Source: a virus. Taken from it: 39,791 nucleotides of DNA. Shown piece by piece: positions 4,654-39,791 of the stretch. Positions within the stretch are counted from its first letter, which is position 1. Each line of letters starts with the position of its first letter. The position numbers were made by a program, and so were the translations under genes. Below the pieces are notes generated by a model that was not told where the DNA came from, did not search any database, and saw only the letters and a list, made by a program, of their open reading frames with translations. The stretch is taken from positions 1-39,791 of the IMG/VR virus record IMGVR_UViG_3300042691_022151; one strand, given 5' to 3'.

Positions 4654-5568
4654 ATGGAACAGGAAACGGACCTCGGGCCGGCTGTAGAGCCGCGCTCGCT
4701 ATCGGACATTCTGGGCAGCCAGCCGGACACGGCGGCGCGTGCGGAACCATCTGCGGGGCAGCAGGCGGAACCACAAGCGGCGACGACCGAGCAGGAAACG
4801 GGCGAAGCCAAGGCGCAGCGGGCACGCGATGAAGCGGGTCGGTTTGCGCCGGAAGCACAGACGGCGCCGCCGGCCGAGCCAAATGCACCGGAGGAAGGTC
4901 GCGTCGCAGCGATCAAAGCCGAGCGTCAGCGCCGCCAGCAGGCGGAACAGCGCGCGGCGGATTTGGAGCGTCAACTACGGGAGTTCCAGCAGCGCCAGAC
5001 GGCGCCGGCAGCACCGCAGGCACCGGCACAGCCGGCAGCGCCCGCGCAGCCTCCGGCGGACTTCTGGGCCGATCCGGAAGGCTACGTCGCCAATCTGCAC
5101 AAGCAGACGCAGGCGGAGGTAGAGCGCCGGACTTCGGAGGTGCGGTTTGCACTTGCTGCCGAGGTGGTGCGGTCGCAGCACGCGGATTACGACGAGGCCG
5201 AAAGCGCCCTGCATGAGCATGTGCAGGAAGCCGAGGCTTCGGGCGATCCGATGCGGAAGGCGCAGGCGGAAGCTATCCGCGCTGCGATCCGCAATGCGCC
5301 GAACCCTGCCGCCATCGCCCTGCAACTCGGCCGTCAGGCCAAGATGCTGCGCGAGGCCGGCAACGACCCGCAAGTGATGTTCCAACGCGCTGTTGAAGCT
5401 GAGGTTGCGAAGCGGCTTGCCGCGCAGCAGCCCGCGCCGGCCCCTGTTCCGGCCAATCCCGCACCACGCCTGCCCACAAGCCTGGCCGGTGCCAGAGCGG
5501 CGGCGCCTCGTAGCGCCTCCACCTACTCTGGACCCCGGCACCTGTCGTCAATTCTGGGGCAGCAATAA
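4654..5568 (+). CDS. Capsid scaffolding protein
   Basis: This protein would direct prohead assembly and then leave the head. It sits between portal and capsid, is 304 aa, highly charged and alanine/glutamine-rich, and is predicted helical. A coiled-coil-like stretch lies at about residues 82-113 (AAIKAERQRRQQAEQRAADL and onward), followed by a Pro/Ala linker, a second helical region (about 130-270) and a disordered tail. Almost the same short motif occurs at both ends: RSLSDILGSQ at residues 14-23 and RHLSSILGQQ as the last ten residues. Annotation as scaffold rests on position and architecture rather than on a certain family match. Confidence 0.8.
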   Translation: MEQETDLGPAVEPRSLSDILGSQPDTAARAEPSAGQQAEPQAATTEQETGEAKAQRARDEAGRFAPEAQTAPPAEPNAPEEGRVAAIKAERQRRQQAEQRAADLERQLREFQQRQTAPAAPQAPAQPAAPAQPPADFWADPEGYVANLHKQTQAEVERRTSEVRFALAAEVVRSQHADYDEAESALHEHVQEAEASGDPMRKAQAEAIRAAIRNAPNPAAIALQLGRQAKMLREAGNDPQVMFQRAVEAEVAKRLAAQQPAPAPVPANPAPRLPTSLAGARAAAPRSASTYSGPRHLSSILGQQ

Positions 5569-5609: not shown

Positions 5610-6689
5610 ATGGCTGACAGCCGCGCCGCAACTGGTCTTACCGTCCAGCAGTGGGACGATAAGTTCTTCGAAGAGTATATCCAGGAAAACCTGTTCCGGC
5701 CCTACATGGGCACGGACGAAAACAGCGTCATCCAGCTCAAGGACGACCTGACCAAGAAGGCCGGCGACAGCGTGACCTTCGCGCTCGTCAACCGCCTGAC
5801 GAATGCCGGCATCACCGGCACTTCGACGCTGGAAGGCAACGAGGAAGACCTCGTGAGCCGTTCTTTCCGCCTGTATGTGGACAAGATCCGCAACGGCGTC
5901 CGTGTGCCGGAAATGGAGGAGCAGCGCTCCGCCATCAGCCTGCGCGATGCCGCTAAGGCGGTGCTGAAGACCTGGATGGACGAGAAAACGCGCAACGACC
6001 TTATCACCGCGCTCGGCTCGATCAACGGCGTGGCCTATGCCTCCGCAACGGCGGCGCAGCGCAACGCTTGGGTGGTGGACAACAGCGACCGCGTGCTGTT
6101 CGGCGCGACGATCTCCAACTACTCCGCGACCCACGCCACTGCCATTGCCAACATCGACACGACCAACGACCGGCTTACCCCGGAGCGGTTGCAGTTGATG
6201 AAGCGCATTGCACTTTCGGCCAACCCGAAGATCGCGCCGATCATGGTCAAGGGCGGCAAGCGCGAGTTCGTCGTGTTCTGCGGCGTGCGCACCTTCCGCG
6301 ATCTGGCGGCGAACGCGACCATGACGGCGGCTAACCGTGACGCGATGCTTCGCGGCATGGACAACCCGATCTTCACGGGCGCGGATCTCTACTACGACGG
6401 CATGATCATCAAGCAGGTGGACGACATCCCCGTTTACACGGGCGTGGGCGCATCGTCTTCGGACGTGTCGCCGGTCTATCTGTGCGGGCGCCAGGCGCTT
6501 GCGGTGGCGTATGCCAAGCGCACCAAGAGCGTGACGGATACCTTCGACTACGGCGACAAGCTCGGCGTGGCCATCGAGGAAATCCGCGGCATCCAGAAGA
6601 TGATCTTCGGCAGCGGTTCCGGCGACACGGACGACACCAAGGATAACGGTGTGGTCACGGGCTACTTCTCGGCGCCGGCTGACGCCTGA
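5610..6689 (+). CDS. Major capsid protein, N4gp56 family
   Basis: This is the main shell protein. The segment VTFALVNRLTNAGITGTSTL followed by EGNEEDL (about residues 52-78) and the later FCGVRTFRDLAAN and RGMDNPIFTGADLYYDGMII match the N4gp56/DUF4043 capsid family, which has the HK97 fold. The length of 359 aa is normal. The acidic C-terminus (GSGDTDDTKDNG) may be surface-exposed. The ribosome binding site AAGGGG at 5596-5601 lies in a hairpin. The gene is followed by a strong terminator (6696-6728), so capsid mRNA probably ends or is processed there, which fits the high capsid:other-gene ratio needed in phages. Confidence 0.93.
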   Translation: MADSRAATGLTVQQWDDKFFEEYIQENLFRPYMGTDENSVIQLKDDLTKKAGDSVTFALVNRLTNAGITGTSTLEGNEEDLVSRSFRLYVDKIRNGVRVPEMEEQRSAISLRDAAKAVLKTWMDEKTRNDLITALGSINGVAYASATAAQRNAWVVDNSDRVLFGATISNYSATHATAIANIDTTNDRLTPERLQLMKRIALSANPKIAPIMVKGGKREFVVFCGVRTFRDLAANATMTAANRDAMLRGMDNPIFTGADLYYDGMIIKQVDDIPVYTGVGASSSDVSPVYLCGRQALAVAYAKRTKSVTDTFDYGDKLGVAIEEIRGIQKMIFGSGSGDTDDTKDNGVVTGYFSAPADA

Positions 6690-25493: not shown

Positions 25494-26102
25494 ATGACAG
25501 ACCCTAAGCCCATCCTGATCGGCTACGCGCGGGTCAGCACATCCGACCAGGATCTAGCCCTCCAGCGCGACGCGCTGCTGGCTGCCGGGGTCGATGCCTC
25601 GCGCATCTACTCCGAGACGGCGAGCGGTGCGCGGGGCACCATCCGCCCGGCCATGGCCGCGTCCTTCAAGGCGCTGCGGAAGGGCGATACGTTGGTGGTG
25701 TGGAAGCTCGATCGGCTCGGCCGGTCCCTTGAGGAGCTTGTGCAGACCGTCCGGCGGATCGAGGCCAAGGGCGCGAACCTCCGCATCCTCACCATGGCCA
25801 TCGACACCAGCACCCCAGGCGGGCGCTTCATTTTCCACATCTTCGCCGCCCTGGCCGAGTTCGAGCGCGAGCTGATCGTGGAGCGCACGAACGCCGGGCT
25901 GGCGGCGGCGCGGGCTCGGGGGCGCGTGGGCGGCCGGGCTCGGGTGATCCCTGACGAGGACGTGGCCCGCGCCATCGACATGCTTAAGGCCGGCACCGAT
26001 CCGCGCGCCGTGGCCAAGGCCCTCGGGGTCAGCAAGAGCACCATCTACAACCGGATCGCGAAGGAATGGGCTTCGGCCCTGGCAGAAGGAACCGCCGAAT
26101 GA
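25494..26102 (+). CDS. Serine recombinase (resolvase/invertase type), 202 aa
   Basis: Full-length small serine recombinase. The catalytic serine is S15 in YARVSTSDQD, with R74/R77 in WKLDRLGRSLEEL. The GGRFIFHIFAALAEFERELI segment is the long E-helix. A C-terminal HTH (VAKALGVSKSTIYNRI, about 173-188) binds DNA. The length fits resolvase/invertase, not large integrases. It may resolve multimers of a circular prophage, invert DNA, or regulate. No inverted repeat pair flanking the fibre genes was noticed. It is the first gene of the 25494-28071 cassette, and its stop overlaps the next ATG. Confidence 0.92.
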   Translation: MTDPKPILIGYARVSTSDQDLALQRDALLAAGVDASRIYSETASGARGTIRPAMAASFKALRKGDTLVVWKLDRLGRSLEELVQTVRRIEAKGANLRILTMAIDTSTPGGRFIFHIFAALAEFERELIVERTNAGLAAARARGRVGGRARVIPDEDVARAIDMLKAGTDPRAVAKALGVSKSTIYNRIAKEWASALAEGTAE

Positions 26103-26359: not shown

Positions 26360-26463
26360 CAGACGAGTCCAAGACGACCCTGCGCGAAGAAGTCGCTTAT
26401 CTGCTCTATTTCATTGGCGCTCTCGGTTTTTGGGCTGGCTTGGGCTGGCTTGTTGCCACCTGA
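26356..26463 (+). CDS. Single-span membrane microprotein, 35 aa
   Basis: Starts at the ATG overlapping the previous stop (26356-26359) and ends sharing a base with the radical SAM start (TGATG at 26461-26465). After a charged head (MTDESKTTLREEVAY) there is one strong transmembrane segment (LLYFIGALGFWAGLGWLVAT), so a small inner-membrane protein is predicted with the N-terminus likely cytoplasmic. Coupling on both sides argues it is translated. Function unknown. Confidence 0.55.
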   Translation: MTDESKTTLREEVAYLLYFIGALGFWAGLGWLVAT

Positions 26464-27461
26464 TGCGTATCCGCCTGACCCAGCTAGACGGCACGCTGCC
26501 CAACCTTGCGCTTATGAAGCTCGGGCACTGGCACCGCGCGCAGGGCCATGAGGTCGTGCTGACGCGACAGGCGGAGCGCGACCTGCTGGAAGGCGATTAT
26601 GATCGCGTCTATGGCTCTGCCATCTTCAAGTTCTCGGCCGCCAAGCTGGCCCGGTTCATCGCCGCTTGGCCGGATGCGATCATCGGCGGCACCGGCACCA
26701 GCAGCGCCGCGACGGTAGAGGGCGTGCTGGGGTGCGCGTCCTACGATGGCCTCGATTACAGCCTCTATCCGACCTATGAGCCATCGCTGGGGTTCACGCA
26801 GCGCGGGTGCCGCCTGTCCTGCAAATTCTGCGTTGTGCCGGGCAAGGAGGGTAAAGCGCGCAGCGTCAACACGATTGCCGAGATATGGCGTGGTCCAGGC
26901 CACGCGAAGAAGCTGCACCTGCTGGACAACGACTTCTTCGGCCAGCCCGAACCCGAGTGGCGCGCCCGCATTTCTGAAATCCGGGAAGGCGGGTTCAAGG
27001 TATGCCTCAACCAAGGCATCAACGTTCGCCACATTACGCCGGAAGCGGCTGCGGCGATCGCCAGCGTCGAATACCGGGATGATGCCTTCAAAGAGCGGCG
27101 GCTCTACACCGCGTGGGACAACCTAAAGGACGAACCGATCTTTATGCGCGGGATCGACATGTTGGAGGCGGCCGGCGTCCCGCCGAAGCACGTCATGGCC
27201 TACATGCTGGTCGGCTACGACAAGAACGAAACCTGGGACCGCCTGTGGCATCGGTTCAATGCTATGGTCGCACGCGGCATCAAGCCTTACCCGATGGTCT
27301 ATGACTGCCGGGCTACCGACGCAGCGCGGTATCGGGGGCTAAAGCAATTTCAGCGGTGGGTGGTGACTGGTCTCTATCGAGCCGTGCCGTTCAGCGATTA
27401 CGACGCGGGCCGCCGCCGAGCGCGCGCGCATGAGGATCAGCAGATGGAGTTCGCAGCATGA
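26463..27461 (+). CDS. Radical SAM protein, 332 aa
   Basis: A radical S-adenosylmethionine enzyme. The [4Fe-4S] cluster motif is CRLSCKFC (C116, C120, C123; CX3CX2C) after the typical strand YEPSLGFTQRG. The N-terminal 90 residues (LALMKLGHWHRAQGHEVVLT; AIIGGTGTSSAATVEGVL) resemble a Rossmann/B12-binding-like leader, seen in many radical SAM proteins such as methylthiotransferase relatives, without a visible DxHxxG cobalamin motif. A GlnGlyIle strand (CLNQGINVRHIT) and HVMAYMLVGYDKNETW fit the later barrel. Substrate is unknown, perhaps tRNA, DNA or protein modification. It is the largest gene of the cassette, coupled to its neighbours. Confidence 0.85.
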   Translation: MRIRLTQLDGTLPNLALMKLGHWHRAQGHEVVLTRQAERDLLEGDYDRVYGSAIFKFSAAKLARFIAAWPDAIIGGTGTSSAATVEGVLGCASYDGLDYSLYPTYEPSLGFTQRGCRLSCKFCVVPGKEGKARSVNTIAEIWRGPGHAKKLHLLDNDFFGQPEPEWRARISEIREGGFKVCLNQGINVRHITPEAAAAIASVEYRDDAFKERRLYTAWDNLKDEPIFMRGIDMLEAAGVPPKHVMAYMLVGYDKNETWDRLWHRFNAMVARGIKPYPMVYDCRATDAARYRGLKQFQRWVVTGLYRAVPFSDYDAGRRRARAHEDQQMEFAA

Positions 27462-28729: not shown

Positions 28730-28962
28730 GCCTTGGGCTCCTTCCGCGCCGCAAGCATGGCGTCAGCCACCTCGTAAAGAATGCCGGATAGCTGCGCCCA
28801 AAGCATCCGGCGCTCCTCTGTTGTTGCTTGACCCATGTTCTCAGCCGTTCCCATAACGCTAGCCAGCGCCTGCCCCGCGAACCAATCGCGCAAGGTCATT
28901 CCATAGGTGCCGTGAATACGCATGTCCGCAGCCGGAAACGCCGGTCCACCATCGTCACTCAT
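28726..28962 (-). CDS. Conserved small phage protein (GGPAFP/YGMTLRDWFAGQ family), 78 aa
   Basis: The start DDGGPAFPAADMRI and the core YGMTLRDWFAGQALASVMGT are a pattern found in very many phage and prophage early proteins of unknown function. ATG at 28962; it overlaps the RecT-like stop by 8 bases and its own stop overlaps the next ATG. One small helical bundle is expected. No activity known. Confidence 0.8.
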   Translation of the reverse strand: MSDDGGPAFPAADMRIHGTYGMTLRDWFAGQALASVMGTAENMGQATTEERRMLWAQLSGILYEVADAMLAARKEPKA

Positions 28963-29824
28963 CGTTGCTCTCCATCATCATCGCGGCGCGGCGCTCGCCG
29001 GCTGCCTGGCGCACAGCCTGCACCGCGTCGGAGTCCCATGCCGTCAGCGCCTCGAAGTGCAGCCCCATCGCGGCGATCCACTCGTCAAGCGCCTGCACGC
29101 TTTCCAGCTTGCCGATGGCAACGCGGCACCATGTGACCCACTGCGCGGCGTGCTTCGCGGATTTCAGGCTGCCATCAGGCGCCAGCATCGGCCAGCCATC
29201 CGGGCCGTCCACGACCGGCGGCGCACGCTCGGCCATGATCTCGGCGCCCGCGTCGATGACCGGGCCACGCGCGGGCGGCATCGGCTCAGCAGGTATGTCC
29301 TGCGCCTCCTCCACGGTGATGACGCCACGCAGCGCATCGGGGAACACGTCGCGGATAGCGAAGCCACGGGCGCGCATCTGCAACATGCGATCCGGGTAGT
29401 TCTGCCACGGGCCAGACTTGCCCCACAGGCCGGCCTTTTTGGCGTCAGCAACGGAGAACGTGCGGCGCTGCGGCGCCTCGCCCCGGCGCGTGACCTCGCA
29501 GAAGCCGGCGCGGTTATCGCCTTCGCCTTCGATGCCTTCGCGGATGCCGGCGCAGGCCGGATGCGAGCGCACCAGCGCAAGGGCGGCGTCGCCCCACAGA
29601 GAAGGCTTGCCGTTGATGATGCTGATCCCGTTGAGCGCCTGCAACGGGCCAAGCCCGACTTCGGCGCCCCACTGGAGAGCTACCATCACGGCTTCCGGCC
29701 GGTTGGTGTAATCCTTCGGTACCATGCCGCTCTTGGCGAGCATCTGCGCGAATTGCACTGCCTCGCCAAACGACTGCGGCGCGAGGCTGGCGCTACCGGC
29801 TCGGGTAGCAATAGCACTGGACAT
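28955..29824 (-). CDS. recT: RecT-family single-strand annealing protein
   Basis: Promotes annealing of single-stranded DNA in phage recombination. The conserved RecT core is visible: ALQWGAEVGLGPLQALNGIS (about 50-69) followed by IINGKPSLWGDAALALVRSH, and later KAGLWGKSGPWQNYPDRML and RARGFAIRDVFPDALRGVIT. The C-terminal 90 residues are a separate helical tail. There is no obvious exonuclease next to it. Its neighbours are a Gp157-like and a zinc-finger protein. AAGGA lies about 7 bases before the ATG at 29824. Length normal for the family. Confidence 0.85.
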   Translation of the reverse strand: MSSAIATRAGSASLAPQSFGEAVQFAQMLAKSGMVPKDYTNRPEAVMVALQWGAEVGLGPLQALNGISIINGKPSLWGDAALALVRSHPACAGIREGIEGEGDNRAGFCEVTRRGEAPQRRTFSVADAKKAGLWGKSGPWQNYPDRMLQMRARGFAIRDVFPDALRGVITVEEAQDIPAEPMPPARGPVIDAGAEIMAERAPPVVDGPDGWPMLAPDGSLKSAKHAAQWVTWCRVAIGKLESVQALDEWIAAMGLHFEALTAWDSDAVQAVRQAAGERRAAMMMESNDE

Positions 29825-32720: not shown

Positions 32721-32745
32721 CGCCAGCGACGGCCGAAACCGTCAA
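32721..32745 (-). promoter_or_regulatory. Candidate leftward early promoter
   Basis: On the reverse strand, TTGACG (32745-32740) is the -35. Nearest -10 candidates are TTGTAT at 19-base spacing or TATGAC at 22, so spacing is loose. It would drive the genes from 32678 to 28044. The -35 lies at the edge of the inverted repeat. Confidence 0.4.
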
Positions 32746-32783
32746 GAAAAAAATCTTGCATTTTTGAAGATTTTTCCCTTGAC
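32741..32783. promoter_or_regulatory. 43-bp near-perfect inverted repeat between divergent early promoters
   Basis: Left arm 32741-32757 and right arm 32767-32783 are mirror images at 15 of 17 positions, around a 9-base spacer. Outer ends are GTCAAG and CTTGAC, overlapping the two opposite TTGAC-type -35 boxes. The element is AT-rich inside a GC-rich genome. A bound repressor would block both leftward and rightward early transcription. Confidence 0.7.
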
Positions 32784-32784
32784 C
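32779..32784 (+). promoter_or_regulatory. Candidate rightward early promoter, -35 box
   Basis: TTGACC is the -35 box at the other edge of the inverted repeat. No good -10 is visible at 16-18 bases (CAGGAT is the best). A palindrome GTGCCGGGCAC at 32813-32823 would lie about at the start of transcription. Promoter activity is inferred from the symmetric layout. Confidence 0.35.
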
Positions 32785-32812
32785 CCTTTTGTGCTACCGA
32801 CGCAGGATGGCC

Positions 32813-32823
32813 GTGCCGGGCAC
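32813..32823. promoter_or_regulatory. Palindrome at the rightward start region
   Basis: GTGCC-G-GGCAC is perfectly symmetric and is enclosed by GGATGG (32805-32810) and CCATCC (23-28 in the same block, 32823-32828). It may be an operator or the 5' hairpin of the rightward message. No T-run follows. From here to 32909 I see no other feature. Confidence 0.35.
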
Positions 32824-32909
32824 CATCCGGCAGTCTGATCGACACATCAAGCTCGGCCCTCTCCGCGCTGCAAACGCGGGGGGGCACCCTTCGATTGAAA
32901 AGGCGTGCC

Positions 32910-32987
32910 ATGAGGTATTGCATCCTTCGGCTTTCATATGTGATGCGCGATGCCGCGCTTATGCTGCATTGCTGGGCAGTTCGATGA
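32910..32987 (+). CDS. Possible 25-aa leader peptide
   Basis: ATG at 32910 with AAAGG 7 bases upstream. It reads MRYCILRLSYVMRDAALMLH and ends CWAVR, with its stop overlapping the next ATG at 32984 (ATGA). The next gene has no ribosome binding site of its own, so coupling would explain its translation. Peptide function unknown; it may only be a leader. Confidence 0.4.
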   Translation: MRYCILRLSYVMRDAALMLHCWAVR

Positions 32988-33205
32988 ACGCGCCACCGTT
33001 CAACGCCGGGCCTGTAGCCGGGCGCGACGACTACACGACCGAGCAAGGCGCGCGACGCCTAGGCCACATGATCGCAGACGCATGGCGCAAGTGCGGCGTT
33101 GATCTGCATTTCGAAGTGGTGGGCGTCGGGCTCGGGAAGGACGGCCGCTTCGCCAGCTTCTCGCCGCGCTTTCCGCAGCTTCTCAACGGGCTGCCACGCA
33201 AGTGA
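32984..33205 (+). CDS. Small conserved-type early protein, 73 aa
   Basis: Residues 18-58 (YTTEQGARRLGHMIADAWRK, DLHFEVVGVGLGKDG) resemble a short alpha-beta phage protein found at the start of early operons in alphaproteobacterial phages, ending QLLNGLPRK. The frame is also open from ATG 32807, but that start overlaps the promoter region and is less likely. Coupled to the next gene by GTGA at 33202. Function unknown. Confidence 0.6.
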   Translation: MNAPPFNAGPVAGRDDYTTEQGARRLGHMIADAWRKCGVDLHFEVVGVGLGKDGRFASFSPRFPQLLNGLPRK

Positions 33206-34077
33206 GCGCCGCAGAGATCCCGAGTGCCGGCGGGGATGATACCGGCACCCTCCCTGTAAACTTGACCCCGGCGGCGGCTAACGCTGTCGCCGGGGCTTTT
33301 TCCTGGGAGCCGACATCGCGCGGCGCGGCGCCAATCGATCTACTGCTCCAGTGGCAGGCCGAAGGGCTGAGCTACTACGCCATCGCGCGCCGCATCGGTC
33401 GCGATCCTCGCACCGTGCAGAAGCGCCTAGAGCGGTATGCGGTGCAGCCGGAAGCCTGCCAGGTAGATCGCCACGCCGAGTTTGCCGAGCGCGTCGCGGC
33501 ACTCTGGGCGCGCGGTATGACGCAGCGGCAGATTAGCCAGCACATCCACGCCTGCGAACGCCGCGTGCGCGCTGTTACCAAGACGTTACCGAAGCCGCAG
33601 CGGCACCGCAAGCAGACGCCGACGCAACACTTCCTGGACAAGTGCGAAGCCTTCGTCGCGCTGGTTAAGGCCGGATCAACGTTCTACGAGGCGCGCGAGC
33701 GGGTCGGCATCGGCAAGGACGTTTACCGCAGGCTTGTCTTGCAGCACGGGCTAGTCTCGACGCGCAAGCCGCGACCGGCATCGGCCAAGCCGCGCCGCGA
33801 GAAAGCGCCGCCGGTTGAGCGCATTGCACGCGCCAAAGAAGCACCGCCCAACCCCTACCGCACCGAAGCGCAGAATGCCGTCATCAAGCTGTGGAAGGGC
33901 GAAGTCGGCATGGTGGTGCGCGGGCGAGACACGCGATCCGTGCCGCCGCCGCACAACGCTGAGCAACTCATTGCCGACGCCATCGCAGCCGGGCGCGTCA
34001 CGCGTTGCCCGCCGCGTGCGGTGTTGTCCGTGAACCAGGGGCTCGGCTTCGCGCCGGCTCCGGAGGTCAATCGATGA
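33202..34077 (+). CDS. Multi-HTH DNA-binding protein, 291 aa
   Basis: GTG start at 33202 overlaps the previous stop. Three HTH-type segments are visible: LSYYAIARRIGRDPRTVQKR (about 57-76), MTQRQISQHIHACERRVRAV (about 105-124), and TFYEARERVGIGKDVYRRLV (about 158-178). A basic linker and an Arg/Lys-rich region follow. It is probably an early regulator or an initiator protein binding repeats. A terminator hairpin lies in its first 100 bases, so expression may be attenuated. No recombinase catalytic residues seen. Coupled to the helicase by ATGA. Confidence 0.68.
   Translation: MSAAEIPSAGGDDTGTLPVNLTPAAANAVAGAFSWEPTSRGAAPIDLLLQWQAEGLSYYAIARRIGRDPRTVQKRLERYAVQPEACQVDRHAEFAERVAALWARGMTQRQISQHIHACERRVRAVTKTLPKPQRHRKQTPTQHFLDKCEAFVALVKAGSTFYEARERVGIGKDVYRRLVLQHGLVSTRKPRPASAKPRREKAPPVERIARAKEAPPNPYRTEAQNAVIKLWKGEVGMVVRGRDTRSVPPPHNAEQLIADAIAAGRVTRCPPRAVLSVNQGLGFAPAPEVNR
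33224..33248 (+). promoter_or_regulatory. First hairpin of a two-hairpin leader element
   Basis: GTGCCGG (33224-33230) and CCGGCAC (33242-33248) form a perfect 7-bp stem with an 11-base loop. It lies 17 bases before a terminator hairpin. Together they may form an attenuator or an antitermination RNA site. Confidence 0.4.
33266..33301 (+). terminator. Rho-independent terminator inside the 5' end of the HTH gene
   Basis: CCCCGGCG (33266-33273) pairs with CGCCGGGG (33288-33295), followed by CTTTTT. It is as strong as the other terminators here but lies within the open frame of the HTH protein. Either the true start is further downstream or transcription is attenuated here until antitermination or active translation. 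Confidence 0.6.
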
Positions 34078-35450
34078 ACGACGATTACATCGCCTTCCTC
34101 GCGAGCAAGGCGCCGCGCGTTCTGGCGTCTGGCCTCGATACGCTTCCGGACCTGCACCATGCGCTAAAGCCGCATCAGCGCGATTGCGTAGCGTTCGGGC
34201 TCAAGCTCGGCCGGTGGGGATGCTTCCTCGATACTGGGCTCGGCAAAACGCTGACACAGCTTGAATGGTGCCAGCACGCAGCACGCGCTACCAACGGCCG
34301 CGCGCTGATCCTGACGCCGCTTGCTGTTGCTGGCCAGATCGTCCGCGAGGCGCGCGACAAGTGGGGCATGGATAACGTCCGCATCATCCGCGACCAATCC
34401 GAAGCCGGTCCCGGCATCAACGTCTGCAACTATGACCGTCTGGACCGCATCACGCCGGCCGAGTTTGGCGCGGTGGCGCTGGACGAGAGCAGCATCCTCA
34501 AGAGCTTCACGGGCAAGACAACCCGCGCGCTGATCGATGCCTTTGCGGGCGTCCGCTTTCGCATGTGTGCGACCGCGACGCCCGCGCCAAATGATCACAT
34601 GGAATTGGGGAACCATAGCGAGTTCCTTGGGATCATGTCGGCAACCGAAATGCTGACGCGGTTCTTCATCAACGATACCGGCGACGCATCGCAGACGTGG
34701 CGCTTGAAGCGCCATGCCGAGCAGGACTTCTGGGCTTGGATGGCGTCGTGGTGCCGCATGGCCGAGACGCCCGCCGATCTCGGCCACGATGCCAGTGAGT
34801 ATGTTCTGCCTCCGCTGCGGGTGCATCGCCACAAGGCGGCAGGCGACACGCGCGCGCCGGCTGGGCTGCTGTTCGCTGGCGAAGTCAGCGCGACCACCAT
34901 GCACAAGACGAAGCGCGACACGGCAGAAGCCCGCGCCGATGCCGTGGCGTCTTTGGTGCCGAGCGAAGGCGCGTGCCTCATCTGGTGTGACACCGACTAC
35001 GAAGCCGACGCCTTGCGGGCTCGCATCCCGGAGGCAATCGAGGTGCGCGGGTCTATGCCTGCCGACAAGAAGGAGGATGCCCTAGCGGCGTTCTCGACGG
35101 GCAAGGCGCGCGTGATGATTACCAAGCCTTCCGTCGCTGGGTTTGGCATGAATTGGCAGCACTGCCGCGTCATGATCTTCGCCGGCCGCAGCTTCTCTTA
35201 CGAGGCTTGGTATCAAGCGGTGCGGCGTTGCTATCGCTTCGGCCAGACGCAGCCCGTCGATTGCCATCTGATCGTGGCCGAGGGCGAGGCGCAGATCGGG
35301 CGCGTTATCGACCGCAAGAGCGCCGACCACACGAAGATGAAGCGCGCGATGGCTGCCGCGATGAAGCGCGAAGGCCGCGAGGATCAAACGCGCATCCCAT
35401 ACAAGCCGACACATCAAGGGAGGTTGCCGCAATGGCTATTCGCTGCCTGA
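34074..35450 (+). CDS. SNF2-type DEAD/DEAH helicase, 458 aa
   Basis: DNA-dependent ATPase of the superfamily-2 SNF2 group. Walker A is DTGLGKT (about 53-59) after HQRDCVAFGLKLGRWGC. Walker B is ALDESS (D137, E138). Motif III is CATATPAPND. Motif VI is RRCYRFGQTQPVDCHLIVAE (about 385-404). The length (458 aa) is typical of phage versions that translocate on DNA during replication or repair. ATG at 34074 is coupled to the previous gene. Its end overlaps the methyltransferase gene by 19 bases. Confidence 0.9.
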   Translation: MNDDYIAFLASKAPRVLASGLDTLPDLHHALKPHQRDCVAFGLKLGRWGCFLDTGLGKTLTQLEWCQHAARATNGRALILTPLAVAGQIVREARDKWGMDNVRIIRDQSEAGPGINVCNYDRLDRITPAEFGAVALDESSILKSFTGKTTRALIDAFAGVRFRMCATATPAPNDHMELGNHSEFLGIMSATEMLTRFFINDTGDASQTWRLKRHAEQDFWAWMASWCRMAETPADLGHDASEYVLPPLRVHRHKAAGDTRAPAGLLFAGEVSATTMHKTKRDTAEARADAVASLVPSEGACLIWCDTDYEADALRARIPEAIEVRGSMPADKKEDALAAFSTGKARVMITKPSVAGFGMNWQHCRVMIFAGRSFSYEAWYQAVRRCYRFGQTQPVDCHLIVAEGEAQIGRVIDRKSADHTKMKRAMAAAMKREGREDQTRIPYKPTHQGRLPQWLFAA

Positions 35451-36376
35451 ACGAAGCCCACGGGGATAACTTCGTGGCGTATCATGGCGATTGCGTGGAC
35501 GTGCTGCGCCAGTTGCCAGAGCGGTCAATCGATTTCTCTGTTTACTCGCCGCCATTCGGCAACCTGTTCATTTACTCAAGCAGCGCCGCCGACATGGGCA
35601 ATTCGTCCTGCGATGGCGAGTTTGCCGCGCACTACGCGTACGGGGTCGCAGAAAAAATCCGCATCACGAAGCCGGGCCGGCTTAGCGCCGTGCATTGCTC
35701 TGACCTGCCCACGCGCGCTTGGTGCGACGGCGAGGTTGGGCTGAAAGACTTTAGCGGCGACATCATCCGTATCCATGTCGCTGCGGGCTGGGTCTATCAC
35801 TCGCGCGTCACCATCTGGAAAGACCCGGTGATTGAGCAGACGCGATCCAAGCCGGTCGGGCTCAACTATGGCCAAATGGTCAAGGACAGCGCCAAGTCGC
35901 GCGTCGGGATGCCCGACTATCTACTGATCTTCCGCAAGCCCGGCATCAACGCCGAGCCCATCCCGCACGACATGGGCGAGGAAACCACGCGCCGGCTTGG
36001 CCGCGAGGATCGCCGCACCATCGGCGCTCATCAGATGCCGCTAGAGAAGTGGCAGGAATGGGCCTCGCCGGTTTGGATGACGATCAACCAGACGCGCACG
36101 CTCAACGCCGCAGCAGCGAAAGACATGGGCGACGAGCGCCATCTCTGCCCGCTGCAACAGGATGTGATCGAGCGCGCGTTGCATCTGTGGAGCAACCCCG
36201 GCGACGTGGTGCTGTCGCCGTTCCTCGGGATCGGTTCCGAAGGCGTCGAGAGCCTCAAGGCGCGGCGCAAGTTCATCGGGGTGGAGTTGAAGGAGAGTTA
36301 CTGGCGGCAGGCGGTGCGCAACTTGACTGCGGCTCATGCCGATGCCGTCGATCTTTTCGACGTTGTGGGCGCATGA
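35432..36376 (+). CDS. DNA methyltransferase, beta-type amino-methylase, 314 aa
   Basis: Methylates an exocyclic amino group of adenine or cytosine. The catalytic motif is SPPF (residues 39-42, in DFSVYSPPFGNLFIYS) and precedes the SAM-binding loop SPFLGIGSEG (about 262-271), followed by RRKFIGVELKESY. This order is the beta class, and SPP often occurs in N4-cytosine enzymes, but N6-adenine is possible. The start ATG 35432 has AAGGGAGG 8 bases upstream inside the helicase end. No restriction partner is present. It may protect phage DNA from host restriction. Confidence 0.9.
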   Translation: MAIRCLNEAHGDNFVAYHGDCVDVLRQLPERSIDFSVYSPPFGNLFIYSSSAADMGNSSCDGEFAAHYAYGVAEKIRITKPGRLSAVHCSDLPTRAWCDGEVGLKDFSGDIIRIHVAAGWVYHSRVTIWKDPVIEQTRSKPVGLNYGQMVKDSAKSRVGMPDYLLIFRKPGINAEPIPHDMGEETTRRLGREDRRTIGAHQMPLEKWQEWASPVWMTINQTRTLNAAAAKDMGDERHLCPLQQDVIERALHLWSNPGDVVLSPFLGIGSEGVESLKARRKFIGVELKESYWRQAVRNLTAAHADAVDLFDVVGA

Positions 36377-36960
36377 GCGCGCCCGCCGTCTGCCTCGCGC
36401 TGCTGTTGGACGCCAGCGCATCGGTTGACACGCAGGCATGGCGCTTGATGTTGGACGGACACGCCGAAGCGTTCCGCCAGCCTGCCGTCATACGCGCCGC
36501 CGAGACGGATGGGCTGGCCGTGGCGCTGATCCAATACAGCGACGCGCCATCGCCGGCGACCTGGCGCATTCTCCGCACCGAAGCCGAAGCCCGCCGCTAC
36601 GCCGCTCAGATCGCCGCGCAGCCGCGCCAGCACATGGCCGGGACCAATACCGGCCGCGCGATTCATGCCGCGCTGGACGCAATGGAAAGCGGGCCAGCGT
36701 GCGAACAGCATGTGATCGACGTGGCGACCGATGGCGCGGCCAGCGATTGGGAAGATGTCCGGACGGCACGCGAGCGGGCGCAGAACATCGGCGTGCGGAT
36801 CAATGCCGTGGGCGTGGTCACGACCGCCGACCCGGACCCGGAGCCATGGTTGCGGCAGGAGATCATCACGGCGGACGGGTTCGTCATCATCGCGGATGGG
36901 TGGGCGGATTTTGCGCGGGCGATTTCCAGGAAACTGGTTATCGAGGTGAGCGCGCGATGA
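36373..36960 (+). CDS. Von Willebrand factor A domain protein (DUF1194-like), 195 aa
   Basis: A single vWA domain. The metal-ion (MIDAS) site reads LLDASASVD (D13, S15, S17), with GTNTGRAI (about 90-97) and VATDGAASD (D120) supplying the other ligands. The sequence between (WRLMLDGHAEAFRQPAVIRA) is like the DUF1194 family. No signal peptide, so it is cytoplasmic here. ATG overlaps the methyltransferase stop; its own stop overlaps the RuvC-like gene. Partner unknown: perhaps a scaffold for nucleic-acid enzymes. DUF1194 proteins are otherwise mostly bacterial. Confidence 0.8.
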   Translation: MSAPAVCLALLLDASASVDTQAWRLMLDGHAEAFRQPAVIRAAETDGLAVALIQYSDAPSPATWRILRTEAEARRYAAQIAAQPRQHMAGTNTGRAIHAALDAMESGPACEQHVIDVATDGAASDWEDVRTARERAQNIGVRINAVGVVTTADPDPEPWLRQEIITADGFVIIADGWADFARAISRKLVIEVSAR

Positions 36961-37433
36961 TCGTCGGCGTGGACGTTGGAGCATCCGGCGCCATCGCATG
37001 GATGACGGACGAAGGGCACCTTATTGAGGTGCGCGACCTGCCGCACATCAAGGGCCACGGCATGTGTCCCGCGATGCTCGCCGGATGGCTGCGCGAGCCG
37101 GGGCGCGGGCCGGTTCATGCCTTCGTTGAACGCGTCGCATCCAGGCCCGGCCAAGGCGTGGTTTCGGTGTTCACGTTCGGTCGTGCCTTCGGAATGATCG
37201 AGGGCGTGCTAGGCGCCGAGGAAGTGCCGGTCACGATGGTGACGCCAGCGAAGTGGAAAGCGCATTTCGGGCTCGGCACGGACAAGAACGCATCCCGCGC
37301 ACGCGCCGCGCAGCTATGGCCCGGCCTTGCAGGCACCTTTGCCCGCGCGAAGGACGATGGCCGAGCCGAGGCTGCGCTGATCGCGCTCTACGGCGCCAAC
37401 AGCTTGCACGGGGCTGGGAAGGGCGGCGCATGA
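36957..37433 (+). CDS. RuvC-like Holliday junction endonuclease, 158 aa
   Basis: RNase H-fold resolvase. Acidic residues are D6 (VGVDVGASGAI), E58 (AFVERV) and D133/D134 (AKDDGRAEAALIALYG), as in RuvC. The segment VTPAKWKAHFGLGTDKNASR is also typical of phage RuvC-like proteins. It would cut branched intermediates before packaging. ATG at 36957 overlaps the vWA stop. Length matches RuvC (about 160-170 aa). Confidence 0.85.
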   Translation: MIVGVDVGASGAIAWMTDEGHLIEVRDLPHIKGHGMCPAMLAGWLREPGRGPVHAFVERVASRPGQGVVSVFTFGRAFGMIEGVLGAEEVPVTMVTPAKWKAHFGLGTDKNASRARAAQLWPGLAGTFARAKDDGRAEAALIALYGANSLHGAGKGGA

Positions 37434-37576
37434 ACCACGACGAAGCCGAGCGCGCGGCGATGCAGTGGTTCTACGCGCAGCCCGCATCCGCCGATCCGTG
37501 GGTGCCAGGCACGCCGGACAGGCTGGCGGCGGGGCTGCTGCGATCCGCCAAGGAAGCACGGGAGGCGCGCAAGTGA
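37430..37576 (+). CDS. Small hypothetical protein, 48 aa
   Basis: ATG at 37430 overlaps the RuvC-like stop and the stop overlaps the next GTG. The sequence AERAAMQWFYAQPASADPWV plus a basic tail (LLRSAKEAREARK) is short and mostly helical. No domain visible. Likely an operon spacer-type early protein. Confidence 0.5.
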   Translation: MNHDEAERAAMQWFYAQPASADPWVPGTPDRLAAGLLRSAKEAREARK

Positions 37577-39600
37577 GCCTGACGGATACCGCGCTATTCT
37601 TGGCCGAGCAGTGGCCCGTTTTCCCATGCGACGCCAACAAGCGGCCGGTTACAGAACACGGCTTTAAGGACGCCACGCGCGATCCGGCGCAGATCGCGGC
37701 CATGTTCCGCCGGCCAGGCGCCTGCATGATCGGCGTTCCGACCGGCGCGGCATCCGACCTGCTCGTGATCGACCTCGATGTGAAGGACGGGCGCCCCGGT
37801 CTGGAATGGCTTGCGGCCAACCAACACCGCATCCCGCGCACTCGCCAGCACTCGACGCGATCCGGCGGGCGGCATCTGCTGTTCCGGTATCCGCAAGGCC
37901 GAGACATTCGCAACAGCGCGTCAAAGATCGCGCCGGGAGTGGATTGCAGGGCGAACGGCGGTTACATCATCACCGCGCCATCAGCCGGCTACAGCGTCCT
38001 AGACGACGCCATGCCCGCCGATCCGCCCGCATGGCTTATCGCGCTGCTCGACCCGCCAGCGCCGCCACCACGGCCCGCGCAACCGCTGCGCAACCCAGCC
38101 CCCGGCGAGGCCACCAAATACGGGCGCACCTCAATCGACAGCGCCTGCGACCGGATCGCGTCCGCACATCACGGCCAAAAGCACGATACCTTGAACCGCG
38201 AAGCCTATGGCGTCGGGCAGCTTGTAGCCGGCGGCGAGATCACGGACGGAGAGGCATTCGCGCGGCTACAGGACGCGCTGGAGGCCATGCACGCGCGCCA
38301 GCCATGCGAGGACTACCGCGCGGCTGTCCGCACCCTCCACACCGCTTACAGCCAAGGCAAAGCCGCGCCACGCTCGGCGCCGCCGCCGCGATACCAAGAT
38401 GTCCGCATTCGCGTTGAGGTGATGGCGCCGGAGCCACCACCACGCGAGGCGCCGCCGGACTATTGGGAAGCCGAGCCGGTTATCGAGATTGAGGAACCAG
38501 CGCAGCCGGCAACGCATCTGACGGACAAGCCGGCATCGCCCGGCCTGCCTCTAGTCTACTGGAACGACATCCAGCCATCCCTCGAAACCGAGGATTTCGT
38601 CGAAGGCGTCCTATCCCGCCAGGCCATGAGTGTCGTTTACGGCCCATCCAACTGCGGCAAGACGTTCTGGGCTTCCGACCTGTCCATGCACGTTGCCACA
38701 GGCCGGCAATGGAACGGGCGCCAAGTAGATCCCGGCGGCGTCATCTACTGCGCCCTAGAAGGCGGCGCAGGCATCCGCAACCGCGTAGCCGCATGGCGCA
38801 AGTTCCACGGGCTTGATGGCGTCGAAGTCCCGTTCGCCATCATCCCGGTTACGCTCAACCTGCTTGACCCGCTAGCCGACGCCACGCGCGTCTGTGACGC
38901 CATCCACGCCGCCGCCCGCGAGTTCGGGGTGAGGGTCATGCTCACCGTCATGGACACGCTGGCGCGAGCTATGGCGGGCGGCAACGAGAACAGCCCCGAG
39001 GATATGGGCGCGCTCGTCACAAACGGCACCATGATCCAGCAAGTGACCGGCTCGCACCTCATGTGGATCCACCACAGCGGCAAGGACCAAGCTCAAGGCG
39101 CGCGCGGTCACTCAAGCCTTCGCGCCGCCACCGATACCGAGATCGAGATCGGGCGCCCGGACAAGGACAGCCCATCCACCGCGAATGCGACCAAGCAGCG
39201 CGAAATGGACATCGACGGCGAGTGGTCGTTCAGCCTCCAGAAGGTCGATCTAGGCATCAACCGGCGCGGCAAGCCGGTCACGTCCTGCGTGGTTCAGCCC
39301 GCCGATGGGGTTGCAAAGAGCGGTCCAAAACTCGCGCCCGGCGCGAAGTTTGCCCTTGCCGCGCTCCACGAAGTGATGATCGGAGGGGGACAACCGTCAA
39401 TGTCCCCCTCCGTCCCCCAATGGGCTCGGGTGGTGCGTTTAGACGCATGGCGCCAAGCCTTCTACCAGCGCAGTCACCTCGATAATCCGCAGACAAAAAA
39501 GAAGGCTTTTCAGCGCGCAGTCAGTGACTTGCGGGACGCTGCTGCCATCGGGTTTCACGATGATTATGTCTGGATCGCAGATGCAAAAAAGCCTCTTTGA
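37573..39600 (+). CDS. Primase-polymerase/RepA-type helicase fusion, 675 aa
   Basis: Two replication modules. The N-terminal prim-pol (about 1-160): WPVFPCDANKRPVTEHGFKD, VIDLDV with D67/D69, and RSGGRHLLFRY (H101). After a Pro-rich linker comes an AAA_25/RepA-like hexameric helicase: Walker A GPSNCGKTF (about 357-365), VIYCALEGGAGIRNRVAAWR, a Walker B-like MLTVMDTLARAM, and ATDTEIEIG. GTG start overlaps the previous stop. A large protein that can start and unwind at an origin, so the nearby GGGGGACA repeats (some inside its 3' end at 39385-39418) may be its origin. Confidence 0.88.
   Translation: MSLTDTALFLAEQWPVFPCDANKRPVTEHGFKDATRDPAQIAAMFRRPGACMIGVPTGAASDLLVIDLDVKDGRPGLEWLAANQHRIPRTRQHSTRSGGRHLLFRYPQGRDIRNSASKIAPGVDCRANGGYIITAPSAGYSVLDDAMPADPPAWLIALLDPPAPPPRPAQPLRNPAPGEATKYGRTSIDSACDRIASAHHGQKHDTLNREAYGVGQLVAGGEITDGEAFARLQDALEAMHARQPCEDYRAAVRTLHTAYSQGKAAPRSAPPPRYQDVRIRVEVMAPEPPPREAPPDYWEAEPVIEIEEPAQPATHLTDKPASPGLPLVYWNDIQPSLETEDFVEGVLSRQAMSVVYGPSNCGKTFWASDLSMHVATGRQWNGRQVDPGGVIYCALEGGAGIRNRVAAWRKFHGLDGVEVPFAIIPVTLNLLDPLADATRVCDAIHAAAREFGVRVMLTVMDTLARAMAGGNENSPEDMGALVTNGTMIQQVTGSHLMWIHHSGKDQAQGARGHSSLRAATDTEIEIGRPDKDSPSTANATKQREMDIDGEWSFSLQKVDLGINRRGKPVTSCVVQPADGVAKSGPKLAPGAKFALAALHEVMIGGGQPSMSPSVPQWARVVRLDAWRQAFYQRSHLDNPQTKKKAFQRAVSDLRDAAAIGFHDDYVWIADAKKPL
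39385..39418. repeat. GGGGGACA/TGTCCCCC repeats inside the helicase 3' end
   Basis: GGGGGACA (39385-39392), TGTCCCCC (39401-39408) and CGTCCCCC (39411-39418) lie within the helicase reading frame. They are the same octamers as the intergenic cluster 200 bases downstream. Confidence 0.6.
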
Positions 39601-39604
39601 CGAT

Positions 39605-39704
39605 GGGGGACACGATGTCCCCCAGGGGACGTCCCTTGGGGGACAAAGGGGACATGTGTCTATAGACATGTCCCTTGTCCCCCTCATGTCCCCCCAGCCT
39701 GTCC
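39605..39704. repeat. Iteron-like GGGGGACA/TGTCCCCC cluster (candidate origin)
   Basis: About ten copies in 100 bases: GGGGGACA at 39605 and 39638, GGGGACA at 39648, GGGGAC at 39625, TGTCCCCC at 39616, 39676 and 39687, TGTCCC at 39669, plus TGTCC at 39700. Both orientations occur, and the block can fold into hairpins, e.g. GGGACATGT with ACATGTCCC around 39649-39674. It directly follows the replication gene, as iterons do at plasmid-type origins. Confidence 0.55.
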
Positions 39705-39791
39705 AGGCCACCTACAAGCGGGTGCAGGACCGCCGCGCAGCCTTCGCCGCGTGGGAGGCAGCCGGATCGCCGTGGCCACCTCCGGCCGGGC
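39668..39791 (+). CDS. Small hypothetical protein, 5' part (continues at 1-140)
   Basis: The reading frame begins at the ATG 39668 (other starts: 39656 GTG, 39686 ATG) inside the repeat cluster and reads through the sequence end into position 1, ending at 140. See the entry at 1-140 for the protein description. The ribosome binding site is poor. Confidence 0.55.
   Translation, partial: MSLVPLMSPQPVQATYKRVQDRRAAFAAWEAAGSPWPPPAG
39723..39791. repeat. 69-bp direct terminal repeat, right copy
   Basis: Exact copy of 1-69, closing the circle when the ends are joined. Confidence 0.95.

Follow-up and report, generated by a model that had tools for sequence, protein, structure and literature searches.

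A near-symmetric AT-rich dyad between divergent early operons: a candidate operator in a complete phage genome that carries no CI or Cro gene

Between two divergent early operons of the viral genome analysed here (the whole 39,791-nt record, hereafter the window), a 43-bp AT-rich dyad occupies the position at which related phages carry a genetic switch. Judging from comparison with these relatives, we give about even odds (a probability of roughly 0.5) that the dyad is an operator-type site, namely the shared centre of divergent early promoters at a Pam5-like switch locus from which the phage repressors are gone, and the hub as a whole is best read either as a stripped-down switch site or as a pair of back-to-back early promoters. 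In this way an anonymous dyad is now assigned to a family whose members are compact early switches of uncultured podoviruses.

Results and discussion

The dyad and its neighbourhood

The two arms of the dyad (32741-32757 and 32767-32783, 17 nt each) are complementary at 15 of 17 positions (88%) around a 9-nt centre, the letters being GTCAAGAAAAAAATCTT on the left and AAGATTTTTCCCTTGAC on the right, and both ends are TTGAC pointing outward. With 13 G+C, the 43-mer is joint lowest among the 43-mers of a record whose overall GC content is 66%. The arm comparison and the composition thus confirm the near-perfect 43-bp inverted repeat and the AT-rich island in GC-rich DNA that the original prediction, made from this sequence without database searches, had described. 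Moreover, the arm motif AAGATTTTTNNCTTGAC has only two occurrences in the window when up to three mismatches are allowed, both of them in the dyad. An equally good dyad is seen in 0.3% of dinucleotide shuffles of the local 150 bp and in 0.15% of shuffles of the tight island, and by a score devised in this analysis the dyad is the third-best in the whole window; it exceeds local chance moderately. A chance origin, in an AT-rich island that serves some other purpose, for example as a melting element or a nucleoid-protein site, is very improbable. For it one might cite the joint lowest GC content in the genome and a local chance (0.15-0.3%) that is not negligible over 40 kb, but relatives show a like placement and architecture at this locus, together with common 13- and 15-mers.

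Genes run away from the dyad both ways. The leftward genes, RecT among them, extend from 32678 to about 28044, and the rightward ones from 32984 to 39600, where the operon comprises the HTH protein, a helicase, a methyltransferase, a VWA protein, RuvC and a primase-helicase (Table 1). This layout, along with the equivalent TTGAC-ended AT-rich dyads in relatives described below, upholds the view that the dyad is the hub between the RecT operon and the replication operon.

Several other roles for the dyad were tried and rejected. A bidirectional terminator is rejected on the orientation of the operons, both of which lead away from the dyad, and an invertase site for the serine recombinase because the arms have no second copy elsewhere in the window. 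As to an RNA element, the dyad precedes both putative transcripts, the fold of the rightward leader is no better than that of shuffled sequences (z 0.22), and Rfam gave only a sub-threshold SorX match (24.6 bits vs 46.6) away from the dyad, at 33217-33302. In that same region, within the first part of the gene for the 291-aa HTH protein, lies a strong terminator-like hairpin (33266-33295) with a T-run, which possibly reflects an attenuator or a wrong start codon.

Elsewhere in the genome, a VWA-like gene (36373-36960, the name read by eye) is located between the methyltransferase and RuvC genes, and its homologue in the relative L077 is upstream of the helicase. Near the end of the structural region, a 332-aa protein (26463-27461) has a weak radical-SAM match (E 0.0018, below the cut-off). 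The window has nine GGGGACA/TGTCCCC words, and eight of them cluster in inverted pairs at 39381-39693, at and beyond the 3' end of the primase-helicase gene; this iteron-like cluster may be a replication origin or an array of binding sites.

Table 1. Features of the hub and of the adjoining operons in the window
Feature	Position	Strand	Basis or remark
Candidate operator and shared upstream element of divergent promoters	32741..32783	.	43-bp AT-rich near-symmetric dyad
-35-like TTGAC, leftward	32741..32745	-	sequence
-35-like TTGAC, rightward	32779..32783	+	sequence
Weak -10 candidate CAGGAT, rightward; spacing 18 as in relatives (TAGGGT)	32803..32808	+	
Sub-site A, CAAGAAAAAAATCTTG, near-palindrome by itself	32743..32758	.	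sequence
Sub-site B, GAAGATTTTTCCCTTG	32766..32781	.	sequence
First leftward gene, 59 aa	32499..32678	-	weak phrog_1273 match
RecT-like annealing protein, leftward operon	28955..29824	-	phrog_561, 8e-53
Rightward leader, about 200 bp, at the place of the relatives' cro-like gene	32784..32983	+	no Cro-like frame
First rightward gene, 73 aa	32984..33205	+	homologue adjoins Cro-like gene in L062
291-aa HTH protein, at the place of the relatives' GcrA-like protein	33202..34077	+	HTH_38, HTH_23
DEAD-type helicase, rightward replication operon	34074..35450	+	

The same locus in related phages

Helicase relatives (64-79% identity) were fetched without use of the dyad. In nine of them (L065, L067, L068, L070, L071, L072, L074, L076 and L078) an AT-rich GTCAA...TTGAC dyad is located 1.0-1.4 kb upstream of the helicase, just as the window dyad is located 1336 bp upstream, and recT is divergent wherever it falls inside the fetched piece (L065, L067, L070 and L074). 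The dyads fall into two size classes, one of 43-44 bp (the window and the L065 type) and the other of 23 bp (L067, L071 and L074). In all nine relatives a small Cro-like gene (P22_Cro/YdaS-like HTH) begins about 30 bp past the dyad, and the promoters are TTGAC-N16-18-TAGGGT or similar; in the 44-bp type, with arms TTTATGATTGAC, TTGACA-N17/18-TAGGGT is kept on both sides. A loose-gap pattern for the 44-bp dyad (gap 12-26, with 12 bases per arm fixed) retrieved 20 viral stretches, of which some belong to contigs that were already among the relatives, and all have gap 20 and length 44 bp; the arm invariance among them carries no weight since the pattern itself fixes those bases, and the evidence lies in the fixed length and the flanking promoters. 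A search for the 44-bp dyad found none in four genomes, nor in 385 genomes from the class to which a Sphingobium (G001) belongs, and the Cro of L070 gave weak partial matches at best against known isolated phages. The GcrA-like proteins of the relatives hint at a host in Alphaproteobacteria, yet Pam5 infects a cyanobacterium.

Two shared words tie the window dyad to this hub family, though not to a particular binder. The left-arm 15-mer CGTCAAGAAAAAAAT, in sub-site A, is common to the window and the L067 hub (1 of 2000 shuffle pairs), and the right-arm 13-mer TTTTTCCCTTGAC, in sub-site B, is common to the window and the L071 hub (2 of 2000); within 3.2 Mb of fetched phage DNA both are confined to such hubs. 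The exact window dyad has no match elsewhere in IMG/VR by a strict pattern search, and eight helicase relatives with enough upstream sequence have no such dyad: L062 has a Cro-like gene but a different control region, L075 has CI and Cro, and L056, L057, L059, L061, L063 and L069 have another arrangement. Conservation in related phages, which the original prediction had named as a check, is therefore found for position and architecture but not for the exact sequence.

A further relative, L238, was reached via the terminase and not via the dyad. Its arms are GTCAAGCAT...ATGCTTGAC against GTCAATCAT...ATGATTGAC in the others, that is, the two arms are altered symmetrically (T>G / A>C), while its Cro-like protein has 11 unique differences, six of which fall in residues 23-33 (Fisher p 0.0016), presumably the recognition helix. 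Comparison of L238 (796-1070) with L065 (4771-5044) shows an apparent operator-specificity switch, in which the operator and the Cro recognition helix change together, and the two types thus form a natural operator/recognition-helix pair. The dyad of L238 and the 44-bp group is probably a Cro operator, for which this co-variation is good evidence, not conclusive because it is one event, and it bears on another operator sequence than that of the window.

Moreover, in the terminase relatives L244, L270, L279 and L306 the corresponding region carries a leftward XRE-type repressor and a rightward Cro-like gene, the gene type in the last three being read from sequence. Altogether, CI/Cro or C/C pairs at the switch locus are found in L075, L244, L270, L279, L306 and Pam5, the last being an isolated podovirus with two C-type repressors at its switch locus and a GcrA gene to the right (PMC9382816). 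Since relatives carry CI/Cro or C-type repressors here, the hub of the window corresponds to the switch locus of Pam5-like podoviruses.

Promoter boxes at the hub

It had also been predicted that the arms end in outward-facing -35 boxes. TTGAC is indeed present at both ends, and the symmetric dyad overlaps both boxes between the divergent operons, but the -10 boxes are poor and no consensus sigma-70 promoter was found at the window dyad. On the right, CAGGAT matches TAGGGT at 4 of 6 positions and TATAAT at 3 of 6, and on the left nothing convincing was found at spacing 16-18. The alphaproteobacterial sigma-70 consensus is CTTGAC-N17-CTATAT, with CTTGAC as the -35 (quoted in PMC2573895); its -10 was not found in the window at spacing 16-18. 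An outward TTGAC pair by itself is not rare, as TTGAC sites in the window number 63.

These boxes invite a serious rival reading, less likely than the operator reading, that there is no operator here and that two back-to-back host-type promoters, each made of a T-tract (UP-like element) and a CTTGAC -35, have the early genes on from the start of infection, in which case the symmetry arises automatically. Both window arms read AAGATTTTTYYCTTGAC, of which CTTGAC is the alphaproteobacterial -35 (PMC2573895), although that consensus may not be the one the host uses, and although arm identity runs beyond the T-tract (AAGAT). T-tract/CTTGAC words are common to L067, L071 and L135 despite their differing Cro-like proteins; the arms of the 44-bp group, on the other hand, are not plain promoter sequence and change symmetrically with the Cro recognition helix. 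The absence of a repressor gene from the window fits such promoters, whereas the poor -10 boxes are odd for strong unregulated ones.

A complete genome without CI or Cro

The first and last 69 bases of the record (1-69 and 39723-39791) are identical, and a separate 4.5-kb contig (L136) spans the end junction at 99.9% identity. The record is thus a complete, circularly mapping viral genome though classed as linear, and therefore absence of CI/Cro from the window means absence from the phage. A Cro HMM built from 17 Cro-like proteins of relatives and run on the six frames of the window gave a best E of 0.4, while four of four held-out family members were recovered at 1e-12 to 1e-18. The HTH_3 search of the window matched only the HTH of the serine recombinase, below the cut-off, and the YdaS and tyrosine integrase searches of the window gave nothing. 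As a result, the complete genome has no lambda-type pair of divergent HTH repressors flanking the operator, no Cro-like HTH as first rightward gene of the kind found in Cro-only hubs, and no tyrosine integrase or other recognised lysogeny gene. The original remark that no CI/Cro-type repressor is visible accordingly extends to the whole phage with working HMM controls, and the accompanying suggestion of a genetic-switch site keeps its locus, where relatives have CI/Cro or Cro, but loses its repressor gene. A 202-aa serine recombinase (25494-26102; phrog_125, 1e-69) is nearest to DNA invertases, and given this invertase-type enzyme a temperate life is conceivable though unlikely.

Could the 291-aa HTH protein bind the dyad, as a successor to a Cro-like or GcrA-like regulator? 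It has HTH_38 and HTH_23 domains and is encoded in the rightward operon, where L065 and Pam5 have their GcrA-like protein, but it has no detectable homology to Cro-like proteins and no match to the GcrA Pfam model, and its resemblance to the GcrA-like protein is marginal (E 0.10). Moreover, GcrA-type proteins are sigma-70 cofactors and not symmetric-operator repressors. No homologue of this protein, nor of the first leftward gene, was found in IMG/VR searches. Position is what speaks for the 291-aa protein, and we regard it as a possible but unlikely binder.

Proposed mechanism

The first rightward gene of the relatives would give a small Cro-like HTH protein that binds the symmetric core as a dimer and covers both -35 boxes, so that the accumulated protein would turn down the recombination and replication operons. 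In the window phage a site of the same kind seems to have been kept, in the form of two CAAGA-A/T-TCTTG-like sub-sites 23 bp apart, and a dimer or a pair of dimers on the dyad would shut both promoters. With cro and cI presumably lost or replaced, the binder would be a host factor, a repressor supplied by a co-resident phage, or a phage protein that has escaped recognition, for which the 291-aa HTH protein is one candidate. A stronger version, in which the phage has dropped its own repressors but kept the operator, and early control has passed to a host regulator or to the Cro/CI of a relative that co-infects the cell or is resident in it, seems to us rather improbable. Against the operator reading in general are the lack of a Cro-like or HTH_3 gene, the poor -10 boxes, the uniqueness of the exact dyad and the close helicase relatives that do without one. 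If the window dyad does work without a phage repressor, it would show how a switch locus can shrink to a control site that is plain or borrowed, and such a reduction would be one stage on the way from a temperate to a virulent lifestyle.

Comparison with known systems

Among isolated phages, Pam1 and Pam5 of Pseudanabaena, with a CI/Cro (C/C) switch, offer a comparison: here too the genome is that of a podovirus, almost equal in size (39.5 kb) to the window, with a circular map and a related terminase (PMC9382816). In Pam5, too, transcription flips between leftward recombination and a rightward operon, with a GcrA-type gene on the right (PMC9382816); however, Pam5 has two repressor genes around a short gap, whereas the window lacks such genes and has a long AT-rich dyad in their place.

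EBPR podovirus 2 (JF412295) has a related helicase, whose operon is immediately preceded by a regulator gene and an annotated promoter. The putative operators of this phage, CACNNNATGTGG-like on visual reading, differ from the site in the window and form two separate clusters. These CAC...TGTGG-like repeats, at about 5045-5090 and 5800-5875 in this genome (L315), stand before the leftward operon and the regulator/helicase side, and resemble an OL/OR arrangement.

For PY54 Cro, of the telomere phages, one palindromic 16-bp operator between divergent promoters is the target of the lytic repressor (PMC4488713), a likeness to the window. There cI and cro flank the operator and binding has been demonstrated (PMC4488713), while the window has neither gene.

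Also close are the Cro-only hubs of uncultured relatives, of 44 bp in L065, L068, L070, L072, L076, L078 and L238 and of 23 bp in L067, L071 and L074. Although these have a Cro-like gene about 30 bp off and TTGAC-N16-18-TAGGGT-like promoters, both of which the window is without, they share with it the position, the AT-rich GTCAA...TTGAC dyad and, where both are in view, the divergent recT and replication operons.
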